From Arthrobacter citreus (lineage in GTDB: Bacteria; Bacillota; Bacilli; Bacillales; Bacillaceae_G), in NCBI GenBank assembly GCA_013200995.1, contig CP053688.1, forward strand, positions 2,728,001-2,792,000: DNA of 64,000 nt, written 5' to 3'. Positions 21,588 through 62,221 of this stretch are shown here, piece after piece. The position numbers and the translations under genes were made by a program. The notes below the pieces were generated by a model. It searched no databases and was not told the DNA's origin. It was given only the letters and a program-made list of their open reading frames with translations. Each line of letters begins with the position of its first letter. The stretch's first letter is position 1.

Positions 21588-24500
21588 TTAATTTAAACCT
21601 AATTCTACAATGATGCTGTCCAACGTTTGACCTTTATAAGTTTTCTTAGCTTTTGGATTTGCATTTGGATTTGTTGGGTTACCCATTCCATAATTGTAGT
21701 AAACATATGCCAAGTCATTTACATCTGTTGTGCCGTCATTATTAATGTCTGTACTACGCTTGTTTGTGCCCCAATACGTTTGAATTTCAAGTGCATCCAT
21801 GATGTCGATTACGTTGTCTTTATTTACATCGCCACCAATGGCTGTATTAACGTCAGAACCAATATAAGCAGCTACTCCGTAATCTTCATTACCTAGGTTT
21901 TCATACGCGCCATGGAAATTAGTATACGTATTAAAGTGACCAGGAACATCAAACACAATTGACAGATCGTCATGAGTAAGAGGTAGTCCACTTACAAGAT
22001 ATTGACCATTCTTAGCCATTGTTCCAGCGTAAGTTTTGCCGTCTTTATCTTGAACATATGTCTTAATTCCCATTGCTGTGTAATCTCTAGTAGTGCTGCC
22101 ATTGAATTTTCCATCCGCTGTTAATAATCCTTGAGCATATACATATCCACCTATAGAAGAGAACTTCGGTAAGATAACGATTGTTGCCAACACACCAAAA
22201 GGTCTTGTTACAACACCATCAACATTTGTAAATTGCGGTGAACCATCAAATTTTAAGCTTGAATTTGATTTAACGACTTTTGGATCTTGAATTTTAAATG
22301 TTACATCAACCATTGGAATATCTCCTGATACTTCTTTTGTTCCATCGAATGTAACAGTAACACTAGTGTTAACAGCCGTTTGATATCCAGCAGTTGTTGT
22401 AGTTTTTAATACACCACCTAAAGCTTTAGCTTCAGGAGTTAATTTAATATCCGCGATGTTTGTATCAACCGAGTCTGCAGTTAAATTATATTTAGCTTCT
22501 TTTACTTTGCTTACGTTATTAGCAGTAAGTGTAACTGTCCTTGTATCTCCATAATGCGTAATCATTTGATTATAACGTGTTGGACCTTGTGGTTGCCCAT
22601 ATACATATGAGTAATCATCTTGAACAAAGTAGTACGTTTTTTGTGCGTTCGCATTTGATGCTTGGTCTCCACCGACAAAGATCATTTGAGTGATTGGTGA
22701 AGTTAATGCAATTTGGTCTGCACCATTTCCATTTTCATCTAATTTTAGAGTTCCAGTGATTTTATTGCTGTTCCAAGAATAAGGTATTCCATTTGTTCCT
22801 TGATTAATATCAACCCCAGCTGCTTTCATTTGATCAACCATTTGGTCATGGATAGAAGCTGTAACTGGAATTGAAGTATCACCTTTTTTGAATTCAACGA
22901 ATGGACTTCCTTCTTTTTCACCTGGTACTTTCACATTGAATTGATCAGGAGCTGTGTTATCAATGAATAAATCTTGTGAATTAACAAATTCTTGACCAGC
23001 ATCATTTACACCAACGATTTTCAGTTTGTAATGACCTTCTCTTGGTAAAGTTGCCACTTTCTTAACAAACTGGTGAGTGCTATCTGTAAACGGATAAATG
23101 TATCCTGAGAATGGAACAAAGTTATATGTTTTACCTTCTTCGTAATACATTCCATCGAATGAATTCGCCATACCTAAATCTTCACCAGTTTTTGCATCAC
23201 TAAGGATTGAATAAACATATCTCATATGAGAATTTAATGTCATTGCTGCACCTAAAGACGGGTTCATAATCATACTTGACAATGCATTACGATCATTTGT
23301 GATTGAGTGACGAGAAAGTGTAACATCTTTAATCCCTTCTTCAACATAATGAACTCCGAATGGAACACGATATGTTTCAGCTGGATTGCTGTGATTTGTG
23401 TACGTTACATACCCTTCGTAAATTCCTTTTTCTGCAATCTTCGGAATCGTTAAGATCGCCTTCTTTGTTACTTTCCCGTATGCAGGCACTTTGAATGAAC
23501 TGTCAAAGGAAACTGATACGCCATTCTTCGCTGCATCTTTTGAACCTCTTGCATCCGTTTGGTACGATACATTCACATCAAATGTTTTTGGTGTCAGACT
23601 GTTATTCTCGATTGTTACAGTGCGAGGATTAACTAAATCTTTACCTGTATAAGCAACATTACCATAGCTTAATGCACTTGTTGTTTCTTTGAAATCCTTC
23701 ATTTGTCCATTAATAAGGATAGATGTTTTCTCTTGAACTTTAATTTCAACTGAAGAATGTAAAGCTTGGAAAGGATCTACACGTCCTGCGCCTTCCTCGA
23801 ATACAGAGTAAGTTTTACTTAGTGGATCAGCTGTATTCATTAAAAGTGCTTTGATATCTTCTGGTTGTAAGTTGTGATTAGCACCTTTTAACAATGCTGC
23901 AACACCTGCTACAAATGGAGTTGCCATTGATGTTCCTGACATATGGTCATATGCATATGTGTAATCAATTGGATTATCTGGGCTATGCACAAATCCAGGA
24001 ACAGTTGATAATACGCTTACACCTGGAGCTGTAACTTCTGGTTTGATATCGTAAGTTACTCGAGATGGTCCACGTGAACTGAACGATGCTAACTCGTCAC
24101 CTTTTGTTGTGATTTGAGCTAAGTCGCTAAAAGTAAATTCTGTTTTACCGCTTAAGATTTTAGATTGTAATGCAAGACCATCAGCATTTGTTAAGTTAAA
24201 AGAAGGAATAAAGTCCGCACCTTCTGCTAGATAAAATGGCATATAACCAGTTGTGTCATTGTTGTAGATCAGGATTGCCGCTGCACCTTTTAATTTAGCT
24301 TGTAGGATTTTATCGTTGATTGTAGTTGAACCACGAGCAACTAGAACTACTTTGCCAGTAACATCTAAGTTAGTATAGTTGTAAGATGCACCAAATCCAG
24401 GAATTCGTACAATTTGATATGTCTTATTTGCTAATTTTGAAATATCATCACTGAATCCTCGTGCTAATAATTGCATGTCGAAGTTCACAGTGTCGTCGTG

Positions 24501-25751
24501 ACCTTTCATTGTTGGAATCGCTGTTGGTACATCACTTGCACCTACCGTTAAAGCTAAAGCAGCATTACCAGGATTTCCTAAAGTGTACATTGCGTCTCCA
24601 GAGTTACCAGCAGCAACAATCGATGTTACGCCACTTAATACAGCATAGTTAAGTGCCATACTTTGAGGTTGTAATGGATCATTGTAAGCTGCGCCTAAAG
24701 ATAAATTGATCACATCCATTCCATCTTGAACAGCTCGATCAATACCAGCGATAATTGCATCGAATGTACCGCCACCACCTGGCCCAAGTACTCGATAAGA
24801 ATAAATATCAGCATCAGGTGCAACACCTTCAGTTGAAAGATCGCTATTTGCTTTTCCTTGACCAGCAATTATCCCTGCTACGTGAGTTCCGTGTTCAGTA
24901 TAGTAAGGTTCAGCTCCACCATTGATAACTGGTTTGCCAGCTTTTACCCAATCAGCATACGTCGTTTCCATTGGGTCATTGTCATTATCAACAAAGTCAT
25001 AACCGCCTTTGTAAGCATCTTTTAAGTCAGGGTGATTATAGTCAATCCCTGTATCAAGGATACCGATTTTAACGCCTTTACCAGTAAAACCTTCTTTGTG
25101 AAGTTGGTTTATTTTAAGGTAAGAACGTTCAGCTGCCATTCCATGTGTGCTTCCTTCAGTATTAAGTGATTCTGAATTAGGAGACTTAGGCTCATCCAAT
25201 TGTACAGTTTGGTTGCTGTAGATTGCTTTAACAGCTCCTGATTGAACTAACGTTTGAAGTTTGTTTGCAGGAACTTTAAGTGTTAATCCGTTGAATGCGG
25301 TTTTGAATTCTCGAGTTACTTTGTATGTTCCGTCTGATTTTGAAGTAAATGCATTTTCTAAATCAGTTTTAAATGTTTCATGGTCGTTGTCTACATCGCT
25401 TTGTGCTTCCGAAGAAGACAGGGTTTGTCCATTTACAGCCGCTTCAAGCATAGCGATTTTCTTTGGTTTGTTCTTGAACTCAACGATCACTGATACAGTT
25501 TTTGAACTATCTAAATCTACGTTATCTGCTAAATGAAGTCCTCGTGCATTGAACTTGTCTATGTTTTTAAGAGCTTGACGTTGTTCCGCAGTTAGATTCA
25601 ATTTGCTTTCTACATTAGATTTAAGATTTTCTACAGCACCATCTAATTTAGTTGGGCCTTGTGCAAATACATTGAGCATATTAGTTTGTGAAAATACGAA
25701 ACTAGCAGTTAGTGCGCCTACTAGCAGTTTGCTTGTTTGCTTTTTCTTCAT
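21588..25751 (-). CDS. Vpr-like S8 subtilisin protease with C-terminal dockerin domain
   Basis: Secreted serine protease of 1387 residues, paralogous to the three at 1-11057 but about 10 kb away. The signal peptide covers about 1-30 and an I9-like propeptide about 85-185. The S8 domain has Asp233, His287, oxyanion Asn383 and Ser608, with a PA insert at about 430-545. The C-terminal dockerin shows two calcium-loop repeats (GDVNKDNVID, TDINNDGTTD) and the tail YKGQTLDSIIVELGLN. Unlike the tandem copies it lacks the TAACCCRATTG box upstream, so it may be regulated differently. The signal sequence also differs. The start is supported by a GGAGA just upstream and by homology. Confidence 0.92.
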   Translation of the reverse strand: MKKKQTSKLLVGALTASFVFSQTNMLNVFAQGPTKLDGAVENLKSNVESKLNLTAEQRQALKNIDKFNARGLHLADNVDLDSSKTVSVIVEFKNKPKKIAMLEAAVNGQTLSSSEAQSDVDNDHETFKTDLENAFTSKSDGTYKVTREFKTAFNGLTLKVPANKLQTLVQSGAVKAIYSNQTVQLDEPKSPNSESLNTEGSTHGMAAERSYLKINQLHKEGFTGKGVKIGILDTGIDYNHPDLKDAYKGGYDFVDNDNDPMETTYADWVKAGKPVINGGAEPYYTEHGTHVAGIIAGQGKANSDLSTEGVAPDADIYSYRVLGPGGGGTFDAIIAGIDRAVQDGMDVINLSLGAAYNDPLQPQSMALNYAVLSGVTSIVAAGNSGDAMYTLGNPGNAALALTVGASDVPTAIPTMKGHDDTVNFDMQLLARGFSDDISKLANKTYQIVRIPGFGASYNYTNLDVTGKVVLVARGSTTINDKILQAKLKGAAAILIYNNDTTGYMPFYLAEGADFIPSFNLTNADGLALQSKILSGKTEFTFSDLAQITTKGDELASFSSRGPSRVTYDIKPEVTAPGVSVLSTVPGFVHSPDNPIDYTYAYDHMSGTSMATPFVAGVAALLKGANHNLQPEDIKALLMNTADPLSKTYSVFEEGAGRVDPFQALHSSVEIKVQEKTSILINGQMKDFKETTSALSYGNVAYTGKDLVNPRTVTIENNSLTPKTFDVNVSYQTDARGSKDAAKNGVSVSFDSSFKVPAYGKVTKKAILTIPKIAEKGIYEGYVTYTNHSNPAETYRVPFGVHYVEEGIKDVTLSRHSITNDRNALSSMIMNPSLGAAMTLNSHMRYVYSILSDAKTGEDLGMANSFDGMYYEEGKTYNFVPFSGYIYPFTDSTHQFVKKVATLPREGHYKLKIVGVNDAGQEFVNSQDLFIDNTAPDQFNVKVPGEKEGSPFVEFKKGDTSIPVTASIHDQMVDQMKAAGVDINQGTNGIPYSWNSNKITGTLKLDENGNGADQIALTSPITQMIFVGGDQASNANAQKTYYFVQDDYSYVYGQPQGPTRYNQMITHYGDTRTVTLTANNVSKVKEAKYNLTADSVDTNIADIKLTPEAKALGGVLKTTTTAGYQTAVNTSVTVTFDGTKEVSGDIPMVDVTFKIQDPKVVKSNSSLKFDGSPQFTNVDGVVTRPFGVLATIVILPKFSSIGGYVYAQGLLTADGKFNGSTTRDYTAMGIKTYVQDKDGKTYAGTMAKNGQYLVSGLPLTHDDLSIVFDVPGHFNTYTNFHGAYENLGNEDYGVAAYIGSDVNTAIGGDVNKDNVIDIMDALEIQTYWGTNKRSTDINNDGTTDVNDLAYVYYNYGMGNPTNPNANPKAKKTYKGQTLDSIIVELGLN

Positions 25752-29413: not shown

Positions 29414-29442
29414 TTGATATTTAAATTAATTAAATGTAATAT
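29414..29442 (+). promoter_or_regulatory. Predicted sigma-A promoter of the riboswitch operon
   Basis: TTGATA (29414-29419), a 17-bp spacer, then TAATAT (29437-29442). Transcription would start near 29449, about 50 nt before the riboswitch aptamer. Confidence 0.5.
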
Positions 29443-29500
29443 AAAAAAGTAATATCCCTGCAGGTTATTATTACCAATTTACCCATTTTTTACCAAATTA

Positions 29501-29574
29501 TTACTCGTATATACTCAGAAATATGGTCTGAGAGTCTCTACCTAGTTCCCAAAAAGAATTAGACTACGTGGTAA
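29501..29574 (+). ncRNA. Purine riboswitch aptamer, guanine class
   Basis: P1 is TTAC.CGTA / TACG..GTAA. P2 is CTCAGA/TCTGAG with the conserved loop AATATGG. J2/3 is GTCTCTACC, keeping the two core uridines. P3 is TAGTTC/GAATTA with loop CCAAAAA, whose CC can kiss the loop-2 GG. J3/1 is GACTACG. The C in GACTA is the specificity base, predicting guanine (adenine aptamers have U). It precedes an HD-domain dNTPase gene by about 255 bp, with terminator hairpins between, so guanine most likely turns the operon off by termination. Confidence 0.88.
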
Positions 29575-29730
29575 TTTTTACTTTATTCGTACTTAAAAGC
29601 TGAGTTTTATAAAGGATCACTTTATTCGCGTGCCTTTGAATAGTAAAACTACTAAAAAGTAGTTTATTCTTAGATTCTTTGAATAAAGTTGTATTACTAC
29701 CTTTAAAAACTTCAACTTTTTATTTGCGCG

Positions 29731-29795
29731 CCAAGATAAAGTAGGACTTATCTCTCTAGTAGAGAAAATGTTCCTTCTCTATCTTGGTTTTTTTG
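29731..29795 (+). terminator. Riboswitch-associated terminator
   Basis: CCAAGATA (29731-29738) pairs with TATCTTGG (29780-29787), followed by TTTTTTT. A second, weaker candidate upstream (AATAAAGTTG / CAACTTTTTATT, about 29682-29722) could be an alternative arm. One of these should be the expression platform of the guanine riboswitch. Confidence 0.7.
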
Positions 29796-29829
29796 TAAAA
29801 CTTAAAGTTTATCGAAGGGGTTTATTGAT

Positions 29830-31062
29830 ATGTATAAGGCCATGTATCATACTTTTGACCATCTAAGACTATCTTCCAAGCAAGCGCAAGAAAGTGATAT
29901 TGCGTTCTTACATGATTTTAATGCAATTTTAGAATCCCCCCATTTAAAAAAATTAGCAAATAAAACTCAGTTAATTCCCAACTCAGATCAATGCAATAAT
30001 CGTTTATCTCATACTATTGACGTTTGCCACGTTTCAAGCTTAATTGTGGAACGCGTTAACTATGTTTTTCATGAGAATAACATTGCACTCATAAATAAAG
30101 ATTTAGTAAAAGCAATTAGTCTTGCTCATGATATTGGCCATCCTCCATTCGGGCATACCGGTGAACGAGCATTAGATAAAATGATGAAAAAAATGGGTGG
30201 ATTTGAATCAAATGCACAGAGCCTTAAAATTTTAGTAAATAGTTCGGATGATTATACATATAGGACCATTGCAGCTTTAATGAAGTACAAAACCAAAATT
30301 CCTTTAGTTAGACAAGAATATAACGGTTTAATCAAAGGCTATTATGAATACATGTCTAATCATATAGAGCCTCTATTTTTGACATATCAAGATAATGTAA
30401 TTGAGCAATACATCGTAGACCTAGCAGATACATTATCTTATGCCCTATCTGATATTAAAGATCTACTAATCTATTTTGGTGAAAATCGATTTACTCAATT
30501 ACTTGCCAATTTTTTTACTAAAAATGCAATGCTTGAAGAAGCTGTGCTTGTTTTTACCGAAGTTAGTAGATCAGAATTGCTTTATTTAATACCGAAGATT
30601 TTGGAAGATATAAAAGATACTATTCTTTCGAAGGTTTTGCGAAATTACCGTAAATTGAGTTCAGAACCACTACACTCTATTATTTACGATTTTATACATA
30701 CACTAGTGATTACTATAAACCATGAAAAACCTATGTATAGTAAATTAAATCTTTCAATCGAAAATGCAATAAAACTGTTTTTATTAAATCAAATTCCAAA
30801 GAAATGTTTCTTAGAGAGGAAAATTAATAGAGACATAGATAAAAAGATTACTCATAATATCCAACTCACCTACGATTATCTTTTTAACTTAAACAGTGAG
30901 GATTCTTTACTGAATGTCGAAAAAGAAATCTTGCAAAAATTAATCAATCTCTCTAATCATGTTGAGCGTTCAAGATATGTTTGCGATGTGATGTGTCATT
31001 TAAGTGATATGGAGATTGTGGATTTTGTAAAAAAATTTAGTAAAAAAAGAATTGTAGTATAA
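29830..31062 (+). CDS. HD-domain dNTP triphosphohydrolase (dGTPase-like)
   Basis: Cytoplasmic protein of 410 residues. HD-superfamily metal ligands are visible: His61 (RLSHTIDVCHV), His100-Asp101 (SLAHDIGHPPFGHTGE) and a distal Asp at about 197-200 (DLADTLSYALSDI). This is the layout of dGTPase/SAMHD1-type enzymes, which cut dNTPs to deoxynucleosides and triphosphate. It lacks the N-terminal extension of E. coli Dgt and is divergent in its C-terminal half. GAAGGGG lies about ten bases before the ATG. It is the first gene after a guanine-class riboswitch, and a P450 gene follows 15 bp later. Substrate preference for a guanine nucleotide is inferred from the riboswitch. Phage-defence dGTPases are an alternative role. 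Confidence 0.8.
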   Translation: MYKAMYHTFDHLRLSSKQAQESDIAFLHDFNAILESPHLKKLANKTQLIPNSDQCNNRLSHTIDVCHVSSLIVERVNYVFHENNIALINKDLVKAISLAHDIGHPPFGHTGERALDKMMKKMGGFESNAQSLKILVNSSDDYTYRTIAALMKYKTKIPLVRQEYNGLIKGYYEYMSNHIEPLFLTYQDNVIEQYIVDLADTLSYALSDIKDLLIYFGENRFTQLLANFFTKNAMLEEAVLVFTEVSRSELLYLIPKILEDIKDTILSKVLRNYRKLSSEPLHSIIYDFIHTLVITINHEKPMYSKLNLSIENAIKLFLLNQIPKKCFLERKINRDIDKKITHNIQLTYDYLFNLNSEDSLLNVEKEILQKLINLSNHVERSRYVCDVMCHLSDMEIVDFVKKFSKKRIVV

Positions 31063-31077
31063 CAGGAGGAAATTAAA

Positions 31078-32334
31078 ATGAGTTCAATTGTAAAGCAATC
31101 TGTTGACCAGTTCAGTATATATAGCAAAGAGTACCATGAAAGAAGAAATGAAGTTTATGAAAACTTAAGAAATAATGCGCCAGTGTTTTGGCATGAAGAA
31201 ATGAAATCATGGTTTATTACTAGATATGAGGATGTTTCTAAGTATTTACTAGGAGATAAATTTATTTCAAGTAATGTCATTCCTCAAAAAATGAGTAATC
31301 TTGCAGAAGGAGAAGATCAACACTTTAAGGATATACTCGATATTATTAAAACTTGGATGGTATACAATGACCGCCCTGTTCATTCTCAACTAAAAGGTTA
31401 TATGAATAGAGCTTTTTTAGTGAATGAAATAGAGCTTATTACTCCTGAAATTAAGAAAATTGTTTCTAATGTCATTGATAAAGTGCTTGAAAATAACTCA
31501 GAATCTTTTGACTTTGTAAAAGAAATCGCCCACCCGATTCCTGCGATGGTTCTATGTAAAATGTTAGGGATTCCAGTTAAAGAAGTTGCTCGATTCATTA
31601 AGTGGTCTGATGATATTGCATTATTTATGCAGGATTTTGTTGTGTCTCACGTTCCTAGTAAAGAAATTAGTGAACAAGTTAGAGGAAGTGTAAGAGAAAT
31701 TTATGCATACCTTTCTGATGCGATTGCCGAAAGACGTAAAGAGAAGAAAAATGATCTATTAAGTAGATTAATTTCGGATACTCCAGGTGTCGATGGTGAA
31801 CTTACTGATGCTCAATTAATCGCTCAAACTATGCACTTGATTTTTGGTGGACACAAAATTCCTCAGTTTGTGTTAAGTAATACTTTACACCTTCTGTTTA
31901 AAAATCAAGAGGTGCTAGAAATGTTGAAAAATGATATGTCACTTCTTCCAAAAGTATTAGATGAAACAATGAGGCTTGAAGGACCAATCCAATATATTGT
32001 TAGACATGCTTCAAATGATATAGAAATACATGGACAGCAAATCAAGAAAGATGATTCTGTTTATTTCTTCTTAGCATCTGCAGGCCGAGATGAACGAGTA
32101 TTTGATAATCCAGAAAAAATGGATATTAGTAGAACAGGGTTCCGCCATGTTGCTTTCGGTGGTGGCTATCATACTTGTATTGCTGCTGCTTTTGCTCGTG
32201 CCGAAATTATGGAAATTCTAAAAGAAGTACTAACTCGTTTTCCAAATATCGAGCCATTATATGATTTAGAAAAACCGGAGTGGACTTCAAACCCTACTTT
32301 CACTGGAATGACACAAATGCCAGTAAAAATCTAA
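31078..32334 (+). CDS. Cytochrome P450
   Basis: Soluble bacterial P450 of 418 residues, start ATG behind AGGAGG. The K-helix ExxR is Glu296-Arg299 (ETMR), and the heme-ligand loop is FGGGYHTCIAA with Cys367. The I-helix reads LIFGGHKIPQ at about 254-263, so the usual acidic-residue/threonine pair that delivers protons to bound oxygen is missing. This is seen in atypical P450s (for example peroxygenase-type or nitrating ones). Electron partners are not encoded nearby. It is translated right after the HD dNTPase under the same riboswitch, so the substrate may be a purine-derived metabolite, which is inference. A terminator follows. Confidence 0.9.
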   Translation: MSSIVKQSVDQFSIYSKEYHERRNEVYENLRNNAPVFWHEEMKSWFITRYEDVSKYLLGDKFISSNVIPQKMSNLAEGEDQHFKDILDIIKTWMVYNDRPVHSQLKGYMNRAFLVNEIELITPEIKKIVSNVIDKVLENNSESFDFVKEIAHPIPAMVLCKMLGIPVKEVARFIKWSDDIALFMQDFVVSHVPSKEISEQVRGSVREIYAYLSDAIAERRKEKKNDLLSRLISDTPGVDGELTDAQLIAQTMHLIFGGHKIPQFVLSNTLHLLFKNQEVLEMLKNDMSLLPKVLDETMRLEGPIQYIVRHASNDIEIHGQQIKKDDSVYFFLASAGRDERVFDNPEKMDISRTGFRHVAFGGGYHTCIAAAFARAEIMEILKEVLTRFPNIEPLYDLEKPEWTSNPTFTGMTQMPVKI

Positions 32335-32357
32335 TTGGGTATATCAAATGAGATTCG

Positions 32358-32392
32358 ATAGGAATAGAACGAAAATTCTATTCCTATTTTTT
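32358..32392 (+). terminator. Terminator after the P450 gene
   Basis: ATAGGAATAGA (32358-32368) pairs with TCTATTCCTAT (32377-32387), followed by TTTTTCTC. It splits the riboswitch unit (dNTPase, P450) from the next three genes unless it is leaky. Confidence 0.85.
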
Positions 32393-32430: not shown

Positions 32431-33063
32431 TTGAGTAATAGTGACGTTCATAATACTACCATTATTATTATTCATGAAATTTACGGAATAAACAACCATA
32501 TTAGGGGTATTGGTGACAATTTAAAAAAGTTAGGTTTTACTGTTTTATGTCCAAATTTACTAGGTAAAATAGAGAGCTTTTGCTATAAAGAGGAAAACAA
32601 GGCTTATCAATATTTTGTTAATGAAATTGGGTTCGAGAACGCTGCAGATCAAGTAGTAACTCTTGCAAAAGAACTTCGAACGCGTTGTTCTAATTTATAT
32701 ATTTTAGGTTTTAGTGTAGGTGCAACGATAGCATGGTTATGTAGTAAAAATGAAGAATTATTTGATGGAGTTATTGGATTTTATGGTTCAAGAATTAGAG
32801 ACTACTTAGAGTTGAGTCCAAAATGTGAGACTTTATTATTTTTCCCAATGAAAGAAAAATCATTTGATCCGGAAACTGTCATAAAAAAACTAAAAACAAA
32901 AGTTCTAACCGAAATCATAAAAGTAGAAGGTGGTCACGGTTTTACAAATCAATCAACACCTTATTATGATCAAGATGCTTCTGATTTCTGTTTCCAAAAA
33001 ATGCATGATTTTATTAGGAAACAAAATCAAAATAAACTTTTCATAACTGGAGGCATCAAATGA
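32431..33063 (+). CDS. Alpha/beta hydrolase, dienelactone-hydrolase-like
   Basis: Protein of 210 residues that starts with TTG behind AGAGGTGG (seven bases). The fold opens TTIIIIHEIYGINNHIRG, like dienelactone hydrolases. The nucleophile elbow is GFSVGA, serine where classical family members have cysteine. A late GGHGF gives the catalytic His. It probably hydrolyses an ester or lactone in the cytoplasm. The ATGA overlap with the following MFS gene shows translational coupling. Confidence 0.8.
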   Translation: MSNSDVHNTTIIIIHEIYGINNHIRGIGDNLKKLGFTVLCPNLLGKIESFCYKEENKAYQYFVNEIGFENAADQVVTLAKELRTRCSNLYILGFSVGATIAWLCSKNEELFDGVIGFYGSRIRDYLELSPKCETLLFFPMKEKSFDPETVIKKLKTKVLTEIIKVEGGHGFTNQSTPYYDQDASDFCFQKMHDFIRKQNQNKLFITGGIK

Positions 33064-34262
33064 AAAGTCAAAGATGGATGTCTTTACAGTTTTTTGGGTT
33101 TTTCTTCACCTTTGGAATATTCGTACCTTATTGGTCTACCTGGCTTACGGCAAGTAAAGGTTTTTCACCAGATAAGGCTGGACTAATCATTGCTTTAGGT
33201 TTAATAGCAAGGTCAGTAACAACTTTTTATATTTTTCCGTTTGTAAGCAGATACGTAAATCTAGCGAGATTAAATCAAGTTGTTTCTTTAACATCTGTCA
33301 CATTGTTAATCATTTTAATACCGTTTAATAGTTTAATTGTAGTAGCTTCTATTACAGTTTTACTCAGCCTAGTTTATCCAATGCCTCTAGCAATGTATGA
33401 AGCTATGGCCTCTATACTGATTAGAGAAAGCAAAATTCAGTACGGGATAAGTAGATCTTATGGTTCGATTGGCTACATTATCTCACTATCGTTGACTGGA
33501 ATATTAATAACTTGGAAGAGTGAAAATATCGTTATTTATCTATTAATTATTGGATGCGTTCTCCTTGCTTTCATTACATCTATGAACGCCCCCTTACCTT
33601 TAAAAACAAAAATAGCATCAAAGAAAGTACCCTTTTTTAAGTTATTTAAATCAAAAGCATTTTTATTGGTTTTAGCAATCTGTATCACCCTTCAAGCTGC
33701 TCATGCAGCGTATTACAGTTATGCTGTTCTTTTTTTGAAAAATATAGGCGTAAAATCTAGTTTTACTGGATTCATACTTATCATTGCAGTAATCTCAGAA
33801 ATTGCTTTCTTTTATATATGTGATTCTCTTTTTAAAAGACGATCCGTTCCAATTCTATTAACGTTTAGTGTAAGTGCTTCCATAATAAGATGGCTTTTAA
33901 TCTTTTCGTTTAATAGTATTTCAGTTTTTGTATTGTCTCAACTATTACACTCTCTTACTTTTGGACTTACTCAGTTTGCATTTGTTAAATACTTAGATGA
34001 AAACATTGAAAATAAGTTCTTCCCATTTGCTCATGGAATTTATGCAGCGCTAGGTTTAAGTTTAGGTAGTGGTCTATTAACTTTATTAAGTGGTTACCTC
34101 TACACTATATCTCCACCTTTCGCTTTTTTAGGTATGGCAATAGTCTGTGTCCCTTGCTTAGTTATGAGTTACTTGTTGAAATTAACATTAGATTACAGGG
34201 ATCAAAAAAACTTAACAGGAGAGATCAGTGAACATGTTACTAGTAAAAGAAAAAGTATTTAG
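33060..34262 (+). CDS. MFS transporter (HcaT/NupG-like MFS_1_like group)
   Basis: Integral membrane protein of 400 residues with about 12 hydrophobic helices. The N-terminus (FFFTFGIFVPYWSTWLTASK) resembles the phenylpropionate/nucleoside permease group. It starts within the stop of the hydrolase gene (ATGA). It may import or export the metabolite handled by the neighbouring P450 and hydrolases; the substrate is unknown. Confidence 0.82.
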   Translation: MKSQRWMSLQFFGFFFTFGIFVPYWSTWLTASKGFSPDKAGLIIALGLIARSVTTFYIFPFVSRYVNLARLNQVVSLTSVTLLIILIPFNSLIVVASITVLLSLVYPMPLAMYEAMASILIRESKIQYGISRSYGSIGYIISLSLTGILITWKSENIVIYLLIIGCVLLAFITSMNAPLPLKTKIASKKVPFFKLFKSKAFLLVLAICITLQAAHAAYYSYAVLFLKNIGVKSSFTGFILIIAVISEIAFFYICDSLFKRRSVPILLTFSVSASIIRWLLIFSFNSISVFVLSQLLHSLTFGLTQFAFVKYLDENIENKFFPFAHGIYAALGLSLGSGLLTLLSGYLYTISPPFAFLGMAIVCVPCLVMSYLLKLTLDYRDQKNLTGEISEHVTSKRKSI

Positions 34263-34659
34263 TGCACTCAAAAATATAAATTCTAATGATATAATTCATA
34301 CGGAAGTTTATCAAATAAATCAAAAAAAAGAGCTTAAAGTTAAATTTTTGAATTCAAATTCTTCTAGAAATCAAGGAGTCTGCTTTATCTCTGAAAATGG
34401 TATATCGAAAAATAATGCTCCAAAACAAAGAACTGTAATTATATGGCAGAATGAGCTACAATCAGAGCTGATCTTAAAATGCACTAGTGGCTTTTTAAAT
34501 GTTTTTAATGTGTGGGAAGAAGAACGAATGGTTGGTTTCCACGACTTTAAGTCTGGTATGCGGATTAAAAAGGAGAAAGATGTATTAATCTATAATTGTA
34601 ATGATGCTTACGGAAATGGTGATTTTAACTCACTAGTATTCTCTATTGAAATACTGTAG
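34228..34659 (+). CDS. Unknown protein, last gene of the P450/MFS cluster
   Basis: Protein of 143 residues (GTG 34228 behind AGGAGAG; ATG 34234 possible), overlapping the MFS gene by 35 bp in another frame. No signal peptide or membrane helix is seen. The C-terminal half is beta-rich (VGFHDFKSGMRIKKEKDVLI) and could be a small beta-barrel or C2-like fold. I do not recognise it. The tight overlap implies it works with the transporter or its neighbours. Confidence 0.7.
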   Translation: MNMLLVKEKVFSALKNINSNDIIHTEVYQINQKKELKVKFLNSNSSRNQGVCFISENGISKNNAPKQRTVIIWQNELQSELILKCTSGFLNVFNVWEEERMVGFHDFKSGMRIKKEKDVLIYNCNDAYGNGDFNSLVFSIEIL

Positions 34660-34687
34660 GCTAAAACGAAAACTTAATCGATTCTAA

Positions 34688-34718
34688 GCAGAGTTATCTT
34701 ATTAACTCTGCTTTTTTT
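34688..34718 (+). terminator. Terminator of the MFS cluster
   Basis: GCAGAGTTA pairs with TAACTCTGC, followed by TTTTTTT. Confidence 0.9.
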
Positions 34719-34855: not shown

Positions 34856-35320
34856 ATGACTGAAGATTTTTTTGCTGACTATGAAAAATTTGTTGTTCCA
34901 CCAATATATCAATATAAATTTGATAAACTAAAATTTAATCCTAAAGAGTATGCTATGTATTACATCTTAACCGTTTCATTAAATGACGCTCTAATAACAA
35001 ATTGGGATGATGCAACTAAATATAATATTGACGTACGAAAAAGCATAGATCATGTATTGGAAGAATTTAATGAAAGAAAAGGCGGTAAATACTATCTTCA
35101 ATTACTTGAGTTTGACAATGAAAAGCCATATTTCGTTGTTGCTCTATCATTTAAAAATAAAATTGAAAAAGAAAAAATAAAAGATATTATTTCAAAGTAT
35201 ATTGAGCAATTAGTAGCGAATTCTTTTTATATTGGTCAAAACTGGTATTGGCTAATTGGGCAAAAAGGGAAAAGAGATCGTAAACTATTTAATATATCAA
35301 TAAAAGAATTTACACACTGA
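34856..35320 (+). CDS. Unknown protein
   Basis: Soluble protein of 154 residues with AGTAGG upstream of the ATG. It is rich in aromatic and charged residues (EDFFADYEKFVVPPIYQYKF; YIGQNWYWLIGQKGKRDRKL). It has no signal peptide or membrane segment and I do not recognise the family. It is monocistronic, followed by the bidirectional terminator near 35454. Confidence 0.65.
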   Translation: MTEDFFADYEKFVVPPIYQYKFDKLKFNPKEYAMYYILTVSLNDALITNWDDATKYNIDVRKSIDHVLEEFNERKGGKYYLQLLEFDNEKPYFVVALSFKNKIEKEKIKDIISKYIEQLVANSFYIGQNWYWLIGQKGKRDRKLFNISIKEFTH

Positions 35321-38593: not shown

Positions 38594-39313
38594 TTAATTC
38601 CACTCTATATTTAATAATTCCTTCACTTTTCCTACGACCGTTTTTCCAGTTTGTTGATCTATTAATGAAGTATATAGATGAGGAATTACTAAATCAGCAC
38701 CATGGTCTAAGCATGTTTGCACAATTGAATGAACATTATCTAAGTCAATCCCACCTGTTGGCTCAAAAATTTTAATACCAGCATTAACTGCAGCTCGTAC
38801 CATGGCTGCAACTTCATCTAATCTTTTATCACCATCGATTGGATAAAATTTAATAGAATGAATCCCTATCTCAGCTAACATAGTAGCCGCTAATTCACAT
38901 GATACTTTTTCTTTATATTGCTTACTTTTGGGTCCAGTTGAAATATACACTTCACCGACAGTTCCGCTTGGTTCGATCAGTGCATTAACAATAGAAAGAT
39001 TATCTTTTAGTTGTTGAATTGCTCCAAGTGTATAGGCTGCTGCTGGAAACACTTGATTAATATGATTTGGAATGACTTTTGTAGAAACGCTCACTACTCG
39101 GTTCCATACGCTTGGGTCACCGGCACCTAAGCCAATAGAAATTGGAATTCCTTTAGATTTAAATGATAATGCAGTTTCAATAGCAGCTTCCTCGGAACTA
39201 AAATCTTTCACCATCAACCCAATTAATACTCGTTCATTAGCCAATTCATAAATTTCCATTGCATTCTCTAAATCTTTAGCCAGTACATTAAAAATTATCC
39301 GCTTGTCTATCAT
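38594..39313 (-). CDS. KDGP-aldolase family protein (DgaF-like)
   Basis: Protein of 239 residues of the 2-keto-3-deoxy-phosphogluconate-type aldolase group, a TIM barrel. A lysine-bearing strand HSIKFYPIDGDKRLDEVAAM is followed by FEPTGGIDLDNV, the phosphate-binding end. It should split the keto-deoxy product of the upstream DgaE-like lyase to pyruvate and glyceraldehyde phosphate. It overlaps that gene by 4 bp (ATGA) and is the last gene of the operon. The family assignment is firm; the exact substrate is inferred. Confidence 0.82.
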   Translation of the reverse strand: MIDKRIIFNVLAKDLENAMEIYELANERVLIGLMVKDFSSEEAAIETALSFKSKGIPISIGLGAGDPSVWNRVVSVSTKVIPNHINQVFPAAAYTLGAIQQLKDNLSIVNALIEPSGTVGEVYISTGPKSKQYKEKVSCELAATMLAEIGIHSIKFYPIDGDKRLDEVAAMVRAAVNAGIKIFEPTGGIDLDNVHSIVQTCLDHGADLVIPHLYTSLIDQQTGKTVVGKVKELLNIEWN

Positions 39314-40422
39314 TGTGCTCGTTGTCCTCCAATAATCTCTATTATTCTATCAACAATAATATCCTCTTGTCCTTCTAGTAAAGGACGTGGATCAATGTGT
39401 AGAAGACCTAAATTTGAATAGTGATCTCTTAAATAAATAGCAGGGCTTCCCTTTCTCAATGTTTCACTCAACTCACTGGCAGTAATACCTGTTTCCAGAG
39501 CATTTAATTGGATACGAGTACGATAAATGGGGCGTCCTGCTTCATCTTGTTCAATTCCTGTTGTTACTCCTGGTATTTCCGATAAGCGATTGCACAAGAT
39601 TTCCATTCTTTCTTTCTGCTTTTCTAGATTACTATCTTTAGCTACATAATTGTCTAATGCCATGATTAAGCCAACCATCGATTCTTTACTGACTTTCATT
39701 GCACGACCAATCCCTTTATATTGCATGCGACATGCTTCGATCCAAACTTGATCGCCACATATAAATCCAGATGTTGGTCCATTCAATGCTTTTCCACCGC
39801 TGTAAATGATTAGATTGGCACCTAATTTACTATATTTTTTCAAATCCTCCTCGGCGGCTGCATCTACAATTAACGGTAGATTGTGTTTTTTCGCAATATC
39901 AATCATTACCTCTAAAGATTGCATCCCTTTTTGAACCGTATGATGCGACTTAACATAAAATAACGCAACTGTTTTATTTGTAATTGCTTGTTCAATATGT
40001 TCCCGATACGTACGATTCGCAAAACCTACTTCTATAGCACGTCCTCCACCTAGTGAAATCATTTGCTTAATACTTGCTCCAAAATGTACTACATGCCCTT
40101 TTTGAATAATAATTTCATTCGCTGCTCCATCAAAAAATGGTAGCTGTTCAATAATATGTAAATTCGTTTTCGAGATGGTAGCTGCCACACTAATCGCTAT
40201 TCCCGCAGCAGCTCCAATTGTTGGACATGCATTTTCTGTATTAGTATGTTTTGAAATTACTTTTCCTGTATATTGAATTAACTCATCAATTTCTACATAA
40301 TCTTGTAGAGCCTGACTCATTGATTCAGCAACTTCATTTTTAACAGCCGATACGCCTAGTGGTGTCATTTTCCCACATGCATTTATCACTTTTTTTAACC
40401 CTATTTGCTCATATATATTCAT
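39310..40422 (-). CDS. DgaE-like PLP-dependent ammonia-lyase
   Basis: Protein of 370 residues of the SelA/DgaE fold-type I PLP group. The PLP lysine is Lys211 in IIYSGGKALNGPTSG, and Asp187 in IVDAAAEE is the ring-nitrogen acid. D-glucosaminate-6-phosphate ammonia-lyase (DgaE) gives 2-keto-3-deoxygluconate-6-phosphate, which the next gene would cleave. The pair sits with DUF4310-4312 proteins and an amidohydrolase, so the true substrate may be a different amino sugar acid derivative. Confidence 0.82.
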   Translation of the reverse strand: MNIYEQIGLKKVINACGKMTPLGVSAVKNEVAESMSQALQDYVEIDELIQYTGKVISKHTNTENACPTIGAAAGIAISVAATISKTNLHIIEQLPFFDGAANEIIIQKGHVVHFGASIKQMISLGGGRAIEVGFANRTYREHIEQAITNKTVALFYVKSHHTVQKGMQSLEVMIDIAKKHNLPLIVDAAAEEDLKKYSKLGANLIIYSGGKALNGPTSGFICGDQVWIEACRMQYKGIGRAMKVSKESMVGLIMALDNYVAKDSNLEKQKERMEILCNRLSEIPGVTTGIEQDEAGRPIYRTRIQLNALETGITASELSETLRKGSPAIYLRDHYSNLGLLHIDPRPLLEGQEDIIVDRIIEIIGGQRAQ

Positions 40423-40432
40423 AGTTTCCTCC

Positions 40433-41092
40433 TTACTCTAATGGAAGCGGGAAGAAGCCACCAAATAACATTGCTCCTAAAATGGCACCGCCAGCAATTG
40501 GTTTTTTCCAAATATAAAATACTAATGCACCAATTATTGATCCTATACCGACTGGTAAAGAGGCTTGGCATGCTGAAATAATAATTAATGGGCCAAAATA
40601 GCGTCCTGCCATATTTCCCGCACCCATCATAACATCAGCCCCAAATGTTGACCGCGCTGACTTAATCGAAATTTTTCGAATTCCAATAATGATATACCCA
40701 ATCGCTAAACCTATAAATAACCCGGTTGCAATCGCTAAAGAGAAATTATATACAGGAGCTTTAATCCCAGCTGCTAGTAAAATCGCTGGAATCCCAACGC
40801 CGACTCCAGTGTTTAATGATCCACCAATATCTAATATCCCAACTAATGGTCCCTCTAGTACCCTAGCAAATAAGAAACTAGCACCAAATGCGGCTGCTGC
40901 ACCATATCCACCACCATCAAGTCCTGCTTTTAACAAAGCGATAACTGCAATGTCATTAAAAGCTCCAACTCCATGTACTACGTACATATGACAAGCTGCA
41001 AATGTTCCAGCTGCCAATAATGCAGTAAAAAATGGAAATGCCCAGTCAGCGTACCAAAATGAATTATAATTTATTTGTTTATTATTTGTCAT
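40433..41092 (-). CDS. DUF4310 family membrane protein
   Basis: Polytopic membrane protein of 219 residues, about six helices, glycine-rich (FFTALLAAGTFAACHMYVVH; LDGGGYGAAAAFGASFLF). ATG 41092 is chosen: AGAGGTG lies eight bases upstream and the codon comes two bases after the preceding stop; the frame is open upstream to 41140. It is always reported next to DUF4311 and DUF4312 in such operons. With those it probably forms a sugar-derivative transporter; this role is inferred. Confidence 0.8.
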   Translation of the reverse strand: MTNNKQINYNSFWYADWAFPFFTALLAAGTFAACHMYVVHGVGAFNDIAVIALLKAGLDGGGYGAAAAFGASFLFARVLEGPLVGILDIGGSLNTGVGVGIPAILLAAGIKAPVYNFSLAIATGLFIGLAIGYIIIGIRKISIKSARSTFGADVMMGAGNMAGRYFGPLIIISACQASLPVGIGSIIGALVFYIWKKPIAGGAILGAMLFGGFFPLPLE

Positions 41093-41094
41093 AA

Positions 41095-41880
41095 TCATTT
41101 CACCTCTTGACCAGCAAATTTGTGTAAGTGGGTTAACCAATTTGGTATCTTCATATGCATTTGTTGAAGTAATGTTAAGTCACTACCTCGGAAAAACGCA
41201 CTTAGAATAAATAAAATGATGATTGTAGTAAATATTGTTTTCGTTGCTCGACTCCAGCCTAAGTCATCTACACCTTTTCCAAGTAAAATCCCTAAAACTA
41301 CTCCTGGAACAGCATTTCCCATAATTAATTGTGCAATACCACCGAAAAGGGTTCCCCAAAATCCGCTACGTTTTCCGGCATCGATTGCTGCGAGCCAAAA
41401 TATTGCCGGCATGACATAAACAATTAGTAAATTGGCAGCAGGTGCCAGTACTTTCATAGCTACAACTTGTAAAGAATCCGGTATTGCCGATGCTGTTGTA
41501 CATAAAAAGGACACAGTAATCGCACCTACTATCGCTCCGATGATCCCCATTTTTTTAGGATTATGCAAAGTTTCTTCAGGATTCTTTTTTCCTCTTAAAG
41601 CAATTGCTGCTGTCCAATGTGGCAACACGCGGTGATCTGTTTCAGAAGTTATTGCACCTACTCCAACCGCAGAAGCCCATGCTTTGAAAAAGAATCCTAA
41701 TCCGAATGTAAAGTGTGAAATACTATCTCCTGCGCATGAGTTTAACTCCCCTAAAGTACGAAAAGATCCTAAGCCTTGTACTTTAGGCGTATGAAACATT
41801 CGGGCAGCCCCTGCTCCGATTGAAAAACCCGTTAACGCACCTACTATCGCTGCTTTAAATAAAATCGTTAGCGTTTCCAT
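41095..41880 (-). CDS. DUF4311 family membrane protein
   Basis: Polytopic membrane protein of 261 residues with several hydrophobic helices and glycine-rich turns (AAIVGALTGFSIGAGAARMF; GLGFFFKAWASAVGVGAITS). The start ATG follows TAGGTGAGAT. It sits between DUF4312 and DUF4310 and is probably the main channel subunit with DUF4310. No biochemical function is known to me. Confidence 0.8.
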   Translation of the reverse strand: METLTILFKAAIVGALTGFSIGAGAARMFHTPKVQGLGSFRTLGELNSCAGDSISHFTFGLGFFFKAWASAVGVGAITSETDHRVLPHWTAAIALRGKKNPEETLHNPKKMGIIGAIVGAITVSFLCTTASAIPDSLQVVAMKVLAPAANLLIVYVMPAIFWLAAIDAGKRSGFWGTLFGGIAQLIMGNAVPGVVLGILLGKGVDDLGWSRATKTIFTTIIILFILSAFFRGSDLTLLQQMHMKIPNWLTHLHKFAGQEVK

Positions 41881-41887
41881 ATCTCAC

Positions 41888-42238
41888 CTACCTAACTTTT
41901 TTCACTTTGTATTTTATAAACTCGGGGATATTATTCTTTTGAACATGTGTTTCATGCTGAATTTCATCAACATTTAACATCGATACACTAACTTTTATAT
42001 CTAATTTATATTCGTACTTTCTTCTTTCCCTTGGAAAGAAAAAAAATAAGAAGCGTTCTGTATAGATAATTTCTTTTGCTTCAATTACTCCGACACTTAA
42101 AGGCTCGATTCGTATAATAATTTGAGAATTATCTTTTACTAACTTTTTTTGGACTTGATTAAGTGCCAAACCAATTGCCTGTTCTTTTGATTGACCAGAA
42201 GAAGTCACTTCAACATGCACTTCTTTTGTTAACATCAT
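41888..42238 (-). CDS. DUF4312 family protein
   Basis: Small soluble protein of 116 residues with alternating strands (EVHVEVTSSGQSKEQAIGLA) and a stretch RFLFFFFPRERRKYEYKLDI. The ATG overlaps the stop of the SFCGS gene (ATGA). It co-occurs with DUF4310/4311 and may be a cytoplasmic subunit of that system. Confidence 0.78.
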   Translation of the reverse strand: MMLTKEVHVEVTSSGQSKEQAIGLALNQVQKKLVKDNSQIIIRIEPLSVGVIEAKEIIYTERFLFFFFPRERRKYEYKLDIKVSVSMLNVDEIQHETHVQKNNIPEFIKYKVKKVR

Positions 42239-42603
42239 TCATTTCCACCTCTTACTTGAATGAGCGCTTTTGTTATTTCCGTACCAAGCTCTTCAAGATC
42301 CATAAAACCAAAACCAAGTACTTCTATTCCATCTCTTATCGCCGTTTTACCTTCTTCTATTGATTTCATTCCATATCTTGCTTTATAACCATATTTATTT
42401 TGTGCTGTGATTGCACCGGCACCACCACTCCCGCAAAATGAAATACCAAGATCCGCATTTTCTGCCTTCATTACATCTCCTAATCTCATATCAGCTGCAA
42501 CACCTTCAATGACAATTGCTTTTCCTCCTGCTGCTTCAACTCCCTTGCCAACCTTTTTCCCATTTCCAAGTCGATCCCCGATAACTACAACAAATTGTTT
42601 CAT
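42235..42603 (-). CDS. Glycine-rich SFCGS family protein
   Basis: 122 residues with the diagnostic motif GISFCGSGGAGAITAQNKYG at about 54-73. It opens FVVVIGDRLGNGKKVGKGVE. The motif cysteine could carry a modification or bind substrate, as in a PTS EIIB cysteine loop, but this is speculation. It is translationally coupled to DUF4312. Confidence 0.8.
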   Translation of the reverse strand: MKQFVVVIGDRLGNGKKVGKGVEAAGGKAIVIEGVAADMRLGDVMKAENADLGISFCGSGGAGAITAQNKYGYKARYGMKSIEEGKTAIRDGIEVLGFGFMDLEELGTEITKALIQVRGGNE

Positions 42604-42618
42604 TTTCTTTTCCTCCTA

Positions 42619-42960
42619 TTATTTATTATTTTTTATTGTTTCAAAGTGAATAGCTAATAAATACTTTTCATCCTCATGTAATTGTGGAAGCCAATCACAA
42701 ACTAATTTTGCCATTTCGATTGATGCATTCGATACCTCTGAAAATAGTGATGCATTCAAACCTTGGATTAACTCTATTTTTACACTTCTGTTAACCATAG
42801 CTGAGACATGTGAAACAAGTGAAAGCCACTGTAAATCAGTTGGCATCATCCCTTTTTCTATAATTAATAACTGTAAATTATCAAGTATTTCTCTACATTT
42901 ATTTTCATCTTCACTTTTTAAAATCATTTCTTTAATTTCCATTTTGTATGGTTCCAGCAT
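42619..42960 (-). CDS. Stand-alone PRD domain protein
   Basis: 113 residues, about one PTS regulation domain, all alpha-helical. The two PRD-type histidines are His51 (LVSHVSAMVNR) and His105 (LLAIHFET). There is no DNA- or RNA-binding domain. It overlaps the amidohydrolase gene by 29 bp. It probably transmits PTS phosphorylation state to this operon or to the transporter; the partner is unknown. Confidence 0.75.
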   Translation of the reverse strand: MLEPYKMEIKEMILKSEDENKCREILDNLQLLIIEKGMMPTDLQWLSLVSHVSAMVNRSVKIELIQGLNASLFSEVSNASIEMAKLVCDWLPQLHEDEKYLLAIHFETIKNNK

Positions 42961-44086
42961 TACTTTCGAACACCTTTCTTCCTTCTCGTATAGTTAGATA
43001 AGGTTCAATCACTTTCTCTACCATTAGTGCATCACCTTCTGAATCAATTAATCTAGCACTCTTTTCTTTTTCGTAGAATAGTGTGACATCAGCTCTTGTA
43101 CCATAGGCAAATGTTCCTTGCTCATTCAATTGAAGAGTTTTTGCTGGTAGACTAGTTACTGCCTGCACAACTTCTAATAACGAATAACCAAGTCCTCTAA
43201 TTTTGGACATTGTCTGCATTAAACTCCCTACGGGTTCGTTATAATTTTTTATATGGAGATCACTGCTTATTGAAAAAGGATATTGATATTTTTTCTTATA
43301 AACTGCAAGAGTTTTAAAGCTAAAACTAGCAGAGCCGTGCCCAACATCAAACAAAACGCCCCTATTTAAACAATCAATGGCTGCTGGTAATAATGTTTGA
43401 TTACTAGTTATGATTCGATTTTTTTGTTTACCATGAAAAGCATGTGTAACGATGTCTCCCTTTTTTAGCATCGGCAAGATTTCTTCTATTAATGGAGGGG
43501 GATTACCGATATGTACCATAATTGGCACATTCAATGCATCAGATAATTTTCTTGCATGAATTAAAGGTTTAATACCAGTATCTTTCACAACTGAGCTACT
43601 CATTCTAGCCTTGAGACCAAGTATGGATGCTTCTGTTTCAAAGATTTTTTCAGCTTCTGCCATGTCCATTAGATCTTCTAAATTAGCTAACTCTGCCCCT
43701 CCATTACATAAACCCTTTTTTGAAATATTTAGAAAAGCTAGTACTTCCGTTTTGCTAGTATTCATAATTTTCCGTTTAAAAACTTCATAGTGTTCGATTC
43801 CAGTGCTTCCCGCATCTACTATCGTTGTCACACCTTGGTTAATTCCTATTTCATCTGCAGCTATTCCTAAATATGTATAATCTTTAAAAACATGAGTATG
43901 AATATCGATAAAACCCGGTGCCACATATGATTCCTTAGCGTCGATATAGTTTACATAGCCTACTTGTCCCTTAATAATTGAAGGATCAATAAATTTACCT
44001 TCTAAAATACCAACCTCTTTTTTTTCGATTTTTGCTGATTCTGGATCAACAACATATCCGTTTTTTATAATAGTGGCTTCAAGCAT
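42932..44086 (-). CDS. Amidohydrolase/deacetylase family metallohydrolase
   Basis: 384 residues of the amidohydrolase TIM-barrel superfamily. Metal ligands are in GFIDIHTHVFKDYTY (HxH, near residue 60) and later histidines (VMVHIGNPP, THAFHGK, ISSDLH). It resembles the deacetylase/dihydroorotase-like enzymes found with DgaE and probably removes an acyl or amide group before the lyase acts. Being early in the operon, it points to an N-acylated amino-sugar acid as substrate. Confidence 0.82.
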   Translation of the reverse strand: MLEATIIKNGYVVDPESAKIEKKEVGILEGKFIDPSIIKGQVGYVNYIDAKESYVAPGFIDIHTHVFKDYTYLGIAADEIGINQGVTTIVDAGSTGIEHYEVFKRKIMNTSKTEVLAFLNISKKGLCNGGAELANLEDLMDMAEAEKIFETEASILGLKARMSSSVVKDTGIKPLIHARKLSDALNVPIMVHIGNPPPLIEEILPMLKKGDIVTHAFHGKQKNRIITSNQTLLPAAIDCLNRGVLFDVGHGSASFSFKTLAVYKKKYQYPFSISSDLHIKNYNEPVGSLMQTMSKIRGLGYSLLEVVQAVTSLPAKTLQLNEQGTFAYGTRADVTLFYEKEKSARLIDSEGDALMVEKVIEPYLTIREGRKVFESNAGTIQNGN

Positions 44087-44098
44087 ATGTCCACTCCC

Positions 44099-61920: not shown

Positions 61921-62221
61921 AAAAGGCATGTCGTCTCTTTCTTCATAATCAAATGAAAAAAGAGACGACATGCCTTAAGCTCACCGCGGTACCACTCTCA
62001 TTGGCTCTTTACGAACCCTACTTTAAAAACCTTGTAACGAAGGTCAATCGTTAAAACTCGAGAATAGATTAATCTAAACTTTCGCTTTACCACTCCCAGG
62101 CAAGTTCAAAGTATCATTGGACTGCGTTGCACCAACCCGCAGCTCTCTTAACCGAACAATTATCTTTTACTACTCCTGATCTTTGCGTTTTGAAAAACAT
62201 TTCTGAATATTTTTTATAATA
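61921..62221 (-). ncRNA. T-box riboswitch leader (specifier probably leucine)
   Basis: Minus strand. The T-box TGGTACCGCGGTGAGC is at 61994-61979, followed by a terminator (AAGGCATGTCGTCTCTTT / AAAGAGACGACATGCCTT, then TTTT). Stem I includes AGGAGTAGTAA near its base and the GGTGCAA apical loop. The specifier candidate is CTT at 62104-62102 in GAA-CTT-GCC, a leucine codon. Uncharged tRNA should stabilise the antiterminator. Confidence 0.88.

Follow-up and report, generated by a model that had tools for sequence, protein, structure and literature searches.

Guanine-I riboswitches (RNA family RF00167), of which the xpt and pbuG leaders of Bacillus subtilis are examples, are associated with purine synthesis, purine salvage and base transport. 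In the 64,000-nucleotide stretch of Arthrobacter citreus DNA analyzed here (the window; contig CP053688.1, positions 2,728,001 to 2,792,000, forward strand), a riboswitch of this class instead precedes an operon encoding an HD-domain protein of the dGTPase type, a cytochrome P450, a hydrolase of the dienelactone hydrolase (DLH) family and a transporter of the major facilitator superfamily (MFS). The RNA is like the known guanine-I riboswitches in its full-length family match, in its standard junctions with the specificity C and in a terminating leader where P1 and the predicted antiterminator overlap. It is unlike them in the genes that it precedes and in its terminator, which begins 113–219 nt downstream of the P1 3′ strand in the leaders that we compared. 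Another system that comes to mind is OxsA, the HD phosphohydrolase of oxetanocin A synthesis in Bacillus, which has a cobalamin radical-SAM partner beside its gene. The likeness is one of idea, in that an HD phosphohydrolase would supply a nucleoside pathway in both of these Bacillales systems; the HD protein described here is dGTPase-like. Regulation of the operon by a guanine riboswitch is well supported by comparative evidence, the identity of the pathway is not. The interest of the locus is the link of a plain guanine sensor to a P450 group that is uncharacterised: from a riboswitch one can read what kind of molecule an operon responds to, and here it ties the P450 group to purines, which shrinks an open search for substrates to a short list and makes the operon a member of a purine-responsive regulon outside known purine metabolism.

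An initial annotation of this DNA had placed a guanine aptamer, including the specificity C, at 29501–29574, and had proposed an Infernal search with the Rfam purine family as a check. In that search of the 64-kb window, RF00167 matches the plus strand at 29485–29586 with 80.1 bits (E 9.8e-13), far above the gathering score of 37, and is one of two RNA families to reach gathering score in the window; the aptamer placed earlier is the core within this match. The alignment is full length (model positions 1–102) and keeps the junctions and the two loop motifs. The junctions read GUAUA (J1/2), GUCUCUACC (J2/3) and GACUAC (J3/1, with the specificity C) and contain no insertions. The pocket was compared with those of 13 other leaders and of the ten other purine riboswitches of the same genome, and the letters of J2/3 and J3/1 are identical to those of the permease-linked switch L009 in that genome. 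U22, U51 and C74 are all present (the numbering is our own assignment); these are the guanine contacts named in PMC9295807, where the xanthine-II variant is described as having U51G plus insertions. Judged by its sequence, the aptamer is thus of the plain guanine-I class, and the RNA itself is ordinary. The features of the leader are the following:

29414–29442, plus strand: promoter-like TTGATA-17-TAATAT (scan match 9/12)
29457–29464, no strand assigned: conserved palindrome CCTGCAGG, about 15 nt after the promoter
29485–29586, plus strand: purine (guanine-class) riboswitch aptamer (RF00167, alignment and pocket comparison)
29567–29591, plus strand: predicted antiterminator strand, which overlaps the P1 3′ strand and pairs with the terminator 5′ arm
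29731–29794, plus strand: leader intrinsic terminator (stem 29731–29787, U-tract 29788–29794; −21.6 kcal/mol)

The direction of control, which the initial annotation had not named, can be predicted from the leaders. The comparison covered 14 leaders, which represent 13 distinct sequences; eight of these come from the genus of the window. In all 14 a hairpin with a U-tract stands before the first gene, with −20.4 to −35.3 kcal/mol; the window's own terminator is missing from the list of the simple terminator scan, and an equivalent hairpin is present in 14 of 14 leaders. In the computed pairing, the strand that starts in the 3′ side of P1 pairs with the terminator 5′ arm in every leader, with −15.1 to −20.4 kcal/mol and z-scores of −2.7 to −5.5. 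When the arm was shuffled 200 times per leader, between 0 and 4 shuffles were equally good (3 for the window, at −15.1 kcal/mol). In five representative leaders no segment at least 24 nt away pairs better with the terminator arm, although one distant site in the window's leader nearly matches its own pairing (−14.4 vs −15.1 kcal/mol), and segments shifted by less than 24 nt pair slightly better. When the strands and arms of these five leaders were crossed, the leader's own strand was the best partner in four of the five columns. The fold of the window's leader has a z-score of −4.0. Since the antiterminator strand overlaps P1, a P1 helix stabilized by the ligand should favor termination, and the riboswitch is therefore probably an OFF switch. 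The leader is long: the HD start codon comes 243 nt after the Rfam match. The promoter match alone is weakly informative, as shuffled sequence gives about as many such sites (35.6) as the region itself (36); both hexamers are unchanged in all eight aligned loci of the Gottfriedia group. The palindrome CCTGCAGG occurs in the same eight loci and in L030, and is not found in the compared stretches of L031, L039, L040 and L033. Its role may be that of an operator or of a 5′ RNA element.

The initial annotation had found the pairing of riboswitch, HD gene and P450 gene unfamiliar, and a targeted literature search gave no paper on it among the matches listed. The neighbourhood search for HD genes beside P450 genes, also proposed there, shows that the pairing recurs together with the riboswitch. 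The nearest named relatives of the window are Gottfriedia and close Bacillus sp. records, and in 6 of 6 of these loci the riboswitch stands before the HD gene. More widely, 13 of the 14 P450 loci with upstream DNA have the riboswitch (the window, L012–L015, L017, L030–L034, L039 and L040), and these come from four genera. Within the four genera alone the count is 14 of 14, with L016 included through its HD gene, as its contig ends before the P450; G013 (L022), with only 156 bases upstream, was dropped. The gene order P450, hydrolase, MFS transporter is kept in all eight regions fetched (L030–L034, L036, L039 and L040), and a further gene, orf5, is present in five of these (not in L032, L033 and L036) and in all five Gottfriedia-group loci that are long enough. 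The conserved unit is therefore the P450, the DLH-type hydrolase and the MFS transporter, often with orf5.

The HD gene is less constant. In the three loci of one genus, L031, L039 and L040, the search revealed no HD gene, and the P450 gene comes first after the riboswitch, which indicates that the HD enzyme is not the core target. L036 has a decayed C-terminal HD remnant before the P450 gene (E 2e-7 with the HD protein P0021, 0.077 with that of the window). In L032 and L033, open reading frames (ORFs) recognized by eye as transposase-like lie between the two genes, and the L033 P450 is without its N-terminus. P450-positive genomes number 8 of 19 at family level and 11 of 397 at order level. 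Of 398 genomes in the phylum-wide sample one was positive, namely that of the window, and so was one of 394 in a Paenibacillus-like family. Further groups gave 2 of 9, 1 of 16 and 3 of 80; the samples overlap. Of the 11 order-level genomes with the P450, 10 have a match to the HD protein at E 1e-60 or better. None of the 386 others does, and three of those have only distant dGTPases (1e-26 to 1e-28). Genome G011 has the same flanking genes without the operon; what is left there corresponds to residues 195–266 of the P450 and 105–124 of orf5, and no Rfam family reaches gathering score at this site. The P450 and orf5 fragments lie on opposite strands (L056:8578–8852).

By looking at the first ORF of at least 100 codons after each of the ten other purine riboswitches of the genome, we obtained a view of the regulon. 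Five of them precede xpt, purE, guaA, pbuX and an adenine deaminase gene, with models above cut-off, and two precede AzgA-permease-like genes, which were recognized from the sequence and have no model match. One more stands before a GntR-type regulator (under cut-off), one before an unnamed gene, and one (L007:1501–1600), with the U of the adenine type at the specificity position, before an MTA/SAH-deaminase-like gene (under cut-off). The P450 operon is an outlier among these targets, which are mostly purine genes.

The interval of the initial annotation stops just after the P450 gene, and three more genes follow on the same strand before the hairpin at 34686–34713:

29830–31062, plus strand: HD-domain dGTPase-type protein, 410 aa (Pfam HD)
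31078–32334, plus strand: cytochrome P450 of the GGHK(I/V)PQ group, 418 aa (PF00067, 108.5 bits vs 22.8)
32357–32388, plus strand: terminator-like hairpin between the P450 and hydrolase genes (terminator scan)
32431–33063, plus strand: DLH-family protein, 210 aa (PF01738, 78.2 bits)
33060–34262, plus strand: MFS transporter, 400 aa (PF12832, 148 bits); overlaps the hydrolase gene
34228–34659, plus strand: orf5, 143 aa (no family match; beta-rich predicted fold)
34686–34713, plus strand: terminator-like hairpin after orf5 (terminator scan)

The first two genes are thus those named before, a dGTPase-like HD gene followed after 15 nt by a P450 gene. The best NCBIfam match of the HD protein is TIGR01353 (dGTP_triPase), with 149.4 bits, 3 under the cut-off of 152.35, and the protein keeps the H...HD...D metal ligands and the dGTPase fold. 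Unlike the bacterial dGTP triphosphohydrolases, such as those of T. thermophilus (2dqb) and V. cholerae (7lwz), it has no Pfam HD_assoc match, and its identity to solved structures is 16–25% (50 structure rows). Its closest homologues are 38–78% identical and come from taxa that also yield P450 matches. The P450 was called atypical, and it is so in one specific sense. It shares the P450 domain and the haem-ligand motif, here FGGGYHTC, with BioI, PksS and CypX, and the cysteine C367 is invariant in 26 of 26 aligned sequences. However, its I-helix reads GGHKIPQ, where Lys-Ile/Val replaces the usual Glu-Thr (BioI: AGHETT, aligned). The acid-alcohol pair of the I-helix is the usual proton relay of P450s, and this protein is without the pair found in monooxygenases of the standard mechanism. 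GGHK(I/V)PQ is present in 69 of the 120 matches listed (of 176), the window included, and the other 51 keep Glu-Thr. For the DLH-family protein, four of the five solved chains matched are carboxymethylenebutenolidases, all of them weak matches. The best matches of the transporter are MFS_1_like, the 3-phenylpropionate transporter (PRK11128, under cut-off with 233 vs 259) and the nucleoside H+ symporter (PF03825, 32.7 bits, above the cut-off of 25.9), and NF037955 is also above cut-off; we take these nearest families to be proton-coupled importers. The ten neighbouring proteins that were scanned for families contain no polyketide synthase, nonribosomal peptide synthetase, glycosyltransferase or methyltransferase, no redox partner for the P450, unlike BioI, PksS and CypX, and no cobalamin radical-SAM partner, unlike the oxetanocin pathway. 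Past the operon terminator lies orf6 (34856–35320, 154 aa), which has no Pfam or NCBIfam match and is 78–80% identical in the Gottfriedia-group loci, even where the operon is lost.

What the operon does can only be suggested. The explanation that we prefer, tentatively and with a little less than even confidence, is a guanine-repressed operon through which the cell takes up and oxidizes a compound related to purines or nucleosides during purine scarcity. At high levels of guanine, or of a close base such as hypoxanthine, ligand binding would stabilize P1 and block the antiterminator pairing, so that the terminator forms and transcription ends early; the operon would thus be reserved for purine shortage. 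With less weight, the MFS protein may then import a purine- or nucleoside-related compound, the P450 may oxidize it and the DLH-type hydrolase may open the product, so that a usable base would be released for salvage by other genes of the regulon. Where there is an HD enzyme, it might convert (deoxy)nucleotide forms of the substrate back to nucleosides. We favor uptake and oxidation on four grounds: the OFF logic, the purine genes that make up most of the regulon, the type of transporter and the lack of scaffold enzymes among the scanned neighbours. Several points weigh against it. L036, from a fifth genus, has the P450, hydrolase and MFS genes and no riboswitch. For the window's terminator arm three foreign strands pair better than its own and one ties, and among the 14 leaders that of the window has the weakest antiterminator pairing and the second-weakest terminator. 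The hairpin at 32357–32388 may lower the expression of the genes behind it or uncouple them (the scan gave 4 terminator-like sites for the region, vs 2.6 in shuffles). The HD enzyme is without an obvious place in a scavenging route, and the P450 group extends to Streptomyces, Kitasatospora, Photorhabdus, Ralstonia and Paenibacillus, a distribution equally in keeping with specialized metabolism.

This spread brings in another option, which we regard as a serious possibility: that the operon makes a specialized metabolite derived from a purine or nucleoside, for example an oxidized guanine antimetabolite. The HD enzyme would strip the phosphates from a nucleotide precursor, the P450 and the hydrolase would tailor it and the MFS protein would export it, with the aptamer giving feedback from the product or limiting synthesis to purine-poor conditions. 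Guanine-repressed synthesis is almost as likely as uptake, because the P450 is patchily spread and producer genera are among its relatives. It would also fit the non-canonical P450, the loss or decay of the operon in some lineages, and the HD and P450 genes that probably share one contig in distant records as well (for example P0028/P0156, P0020/P0151 and P0021/P0165). On the other hand, the nearest transporter families are importers, a precursor base would be less expected to turn the operon off, and scaffold enzymes are absent from the scanned neighbourhood. A more specific version seems to us rather unlikely: an undescribed, guanine-riboswitch-gated Bacillales pathway for a purine derivative, in which a dGTPase-type enzyme dedicated to the task feeds the P450 group without the acid-alcohol pair, and this P450 carries out unusual chemistry on guanine or one of its nucleosides. 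The product might in turn mimic guanine and act back on the riboswitch. It is improbable that the aptamer senses a different purine, such as 2′-deoxyguanosine, 8-oxoguanine or the substrate or product of the pathway. An unusual gene association has marked ligand-changed variants before, according to PMC9295807, but the pocket shares its junction letters with L009 and keeps U51 and C74, without the changes of xanthine-II. The initial annotation had offered both a purine-handling or nucleotide-metabolite pathway and a defence enzyme tuned to the guanine level. The aptamer, the conserved pairing and the regulon make the former the likely setting, while an HD enzyme that depletes nucleotides against phage is very improbable. 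A generic PADLOC dGTPase model does match (176.6 bits), and the fold and metal ligands are intact; yet the protein is far below the cut-off of the anti-phage dGTPase model (NF041026, 139.7 vs 400), the other five proteins scanned have no PADLOC match, the riboswitch is still in front of the P450 at the loci in which no HD gene was found, and control would run through a housekeeping-type purine sensor. Least probable of all is a riboswitch left over from a lost purine gene with the operon behind it by chance. The length of the leader would suit such a relic, but the idea is largely contradicted by the arrangement with a terminator and possible antiterminator in all 14 leaders, and by the loss of the riboswitch where G011 lost the operon.

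Elsewhere in the window, a T-box leader lies on the minus strand at 61958–62192 (RF00230, 114.5 bits). A minus-strand run of genes at 38594–45955 presumably encodes a deacetylase-like amidohydrolase, small membrane proteins and a PRD-type regulator, and an ORF of 1387 aa (21588–25751, minus strand) encodes what we take to be a Vpr-like S8 protease with a dockerin-like C-terminal stretch.

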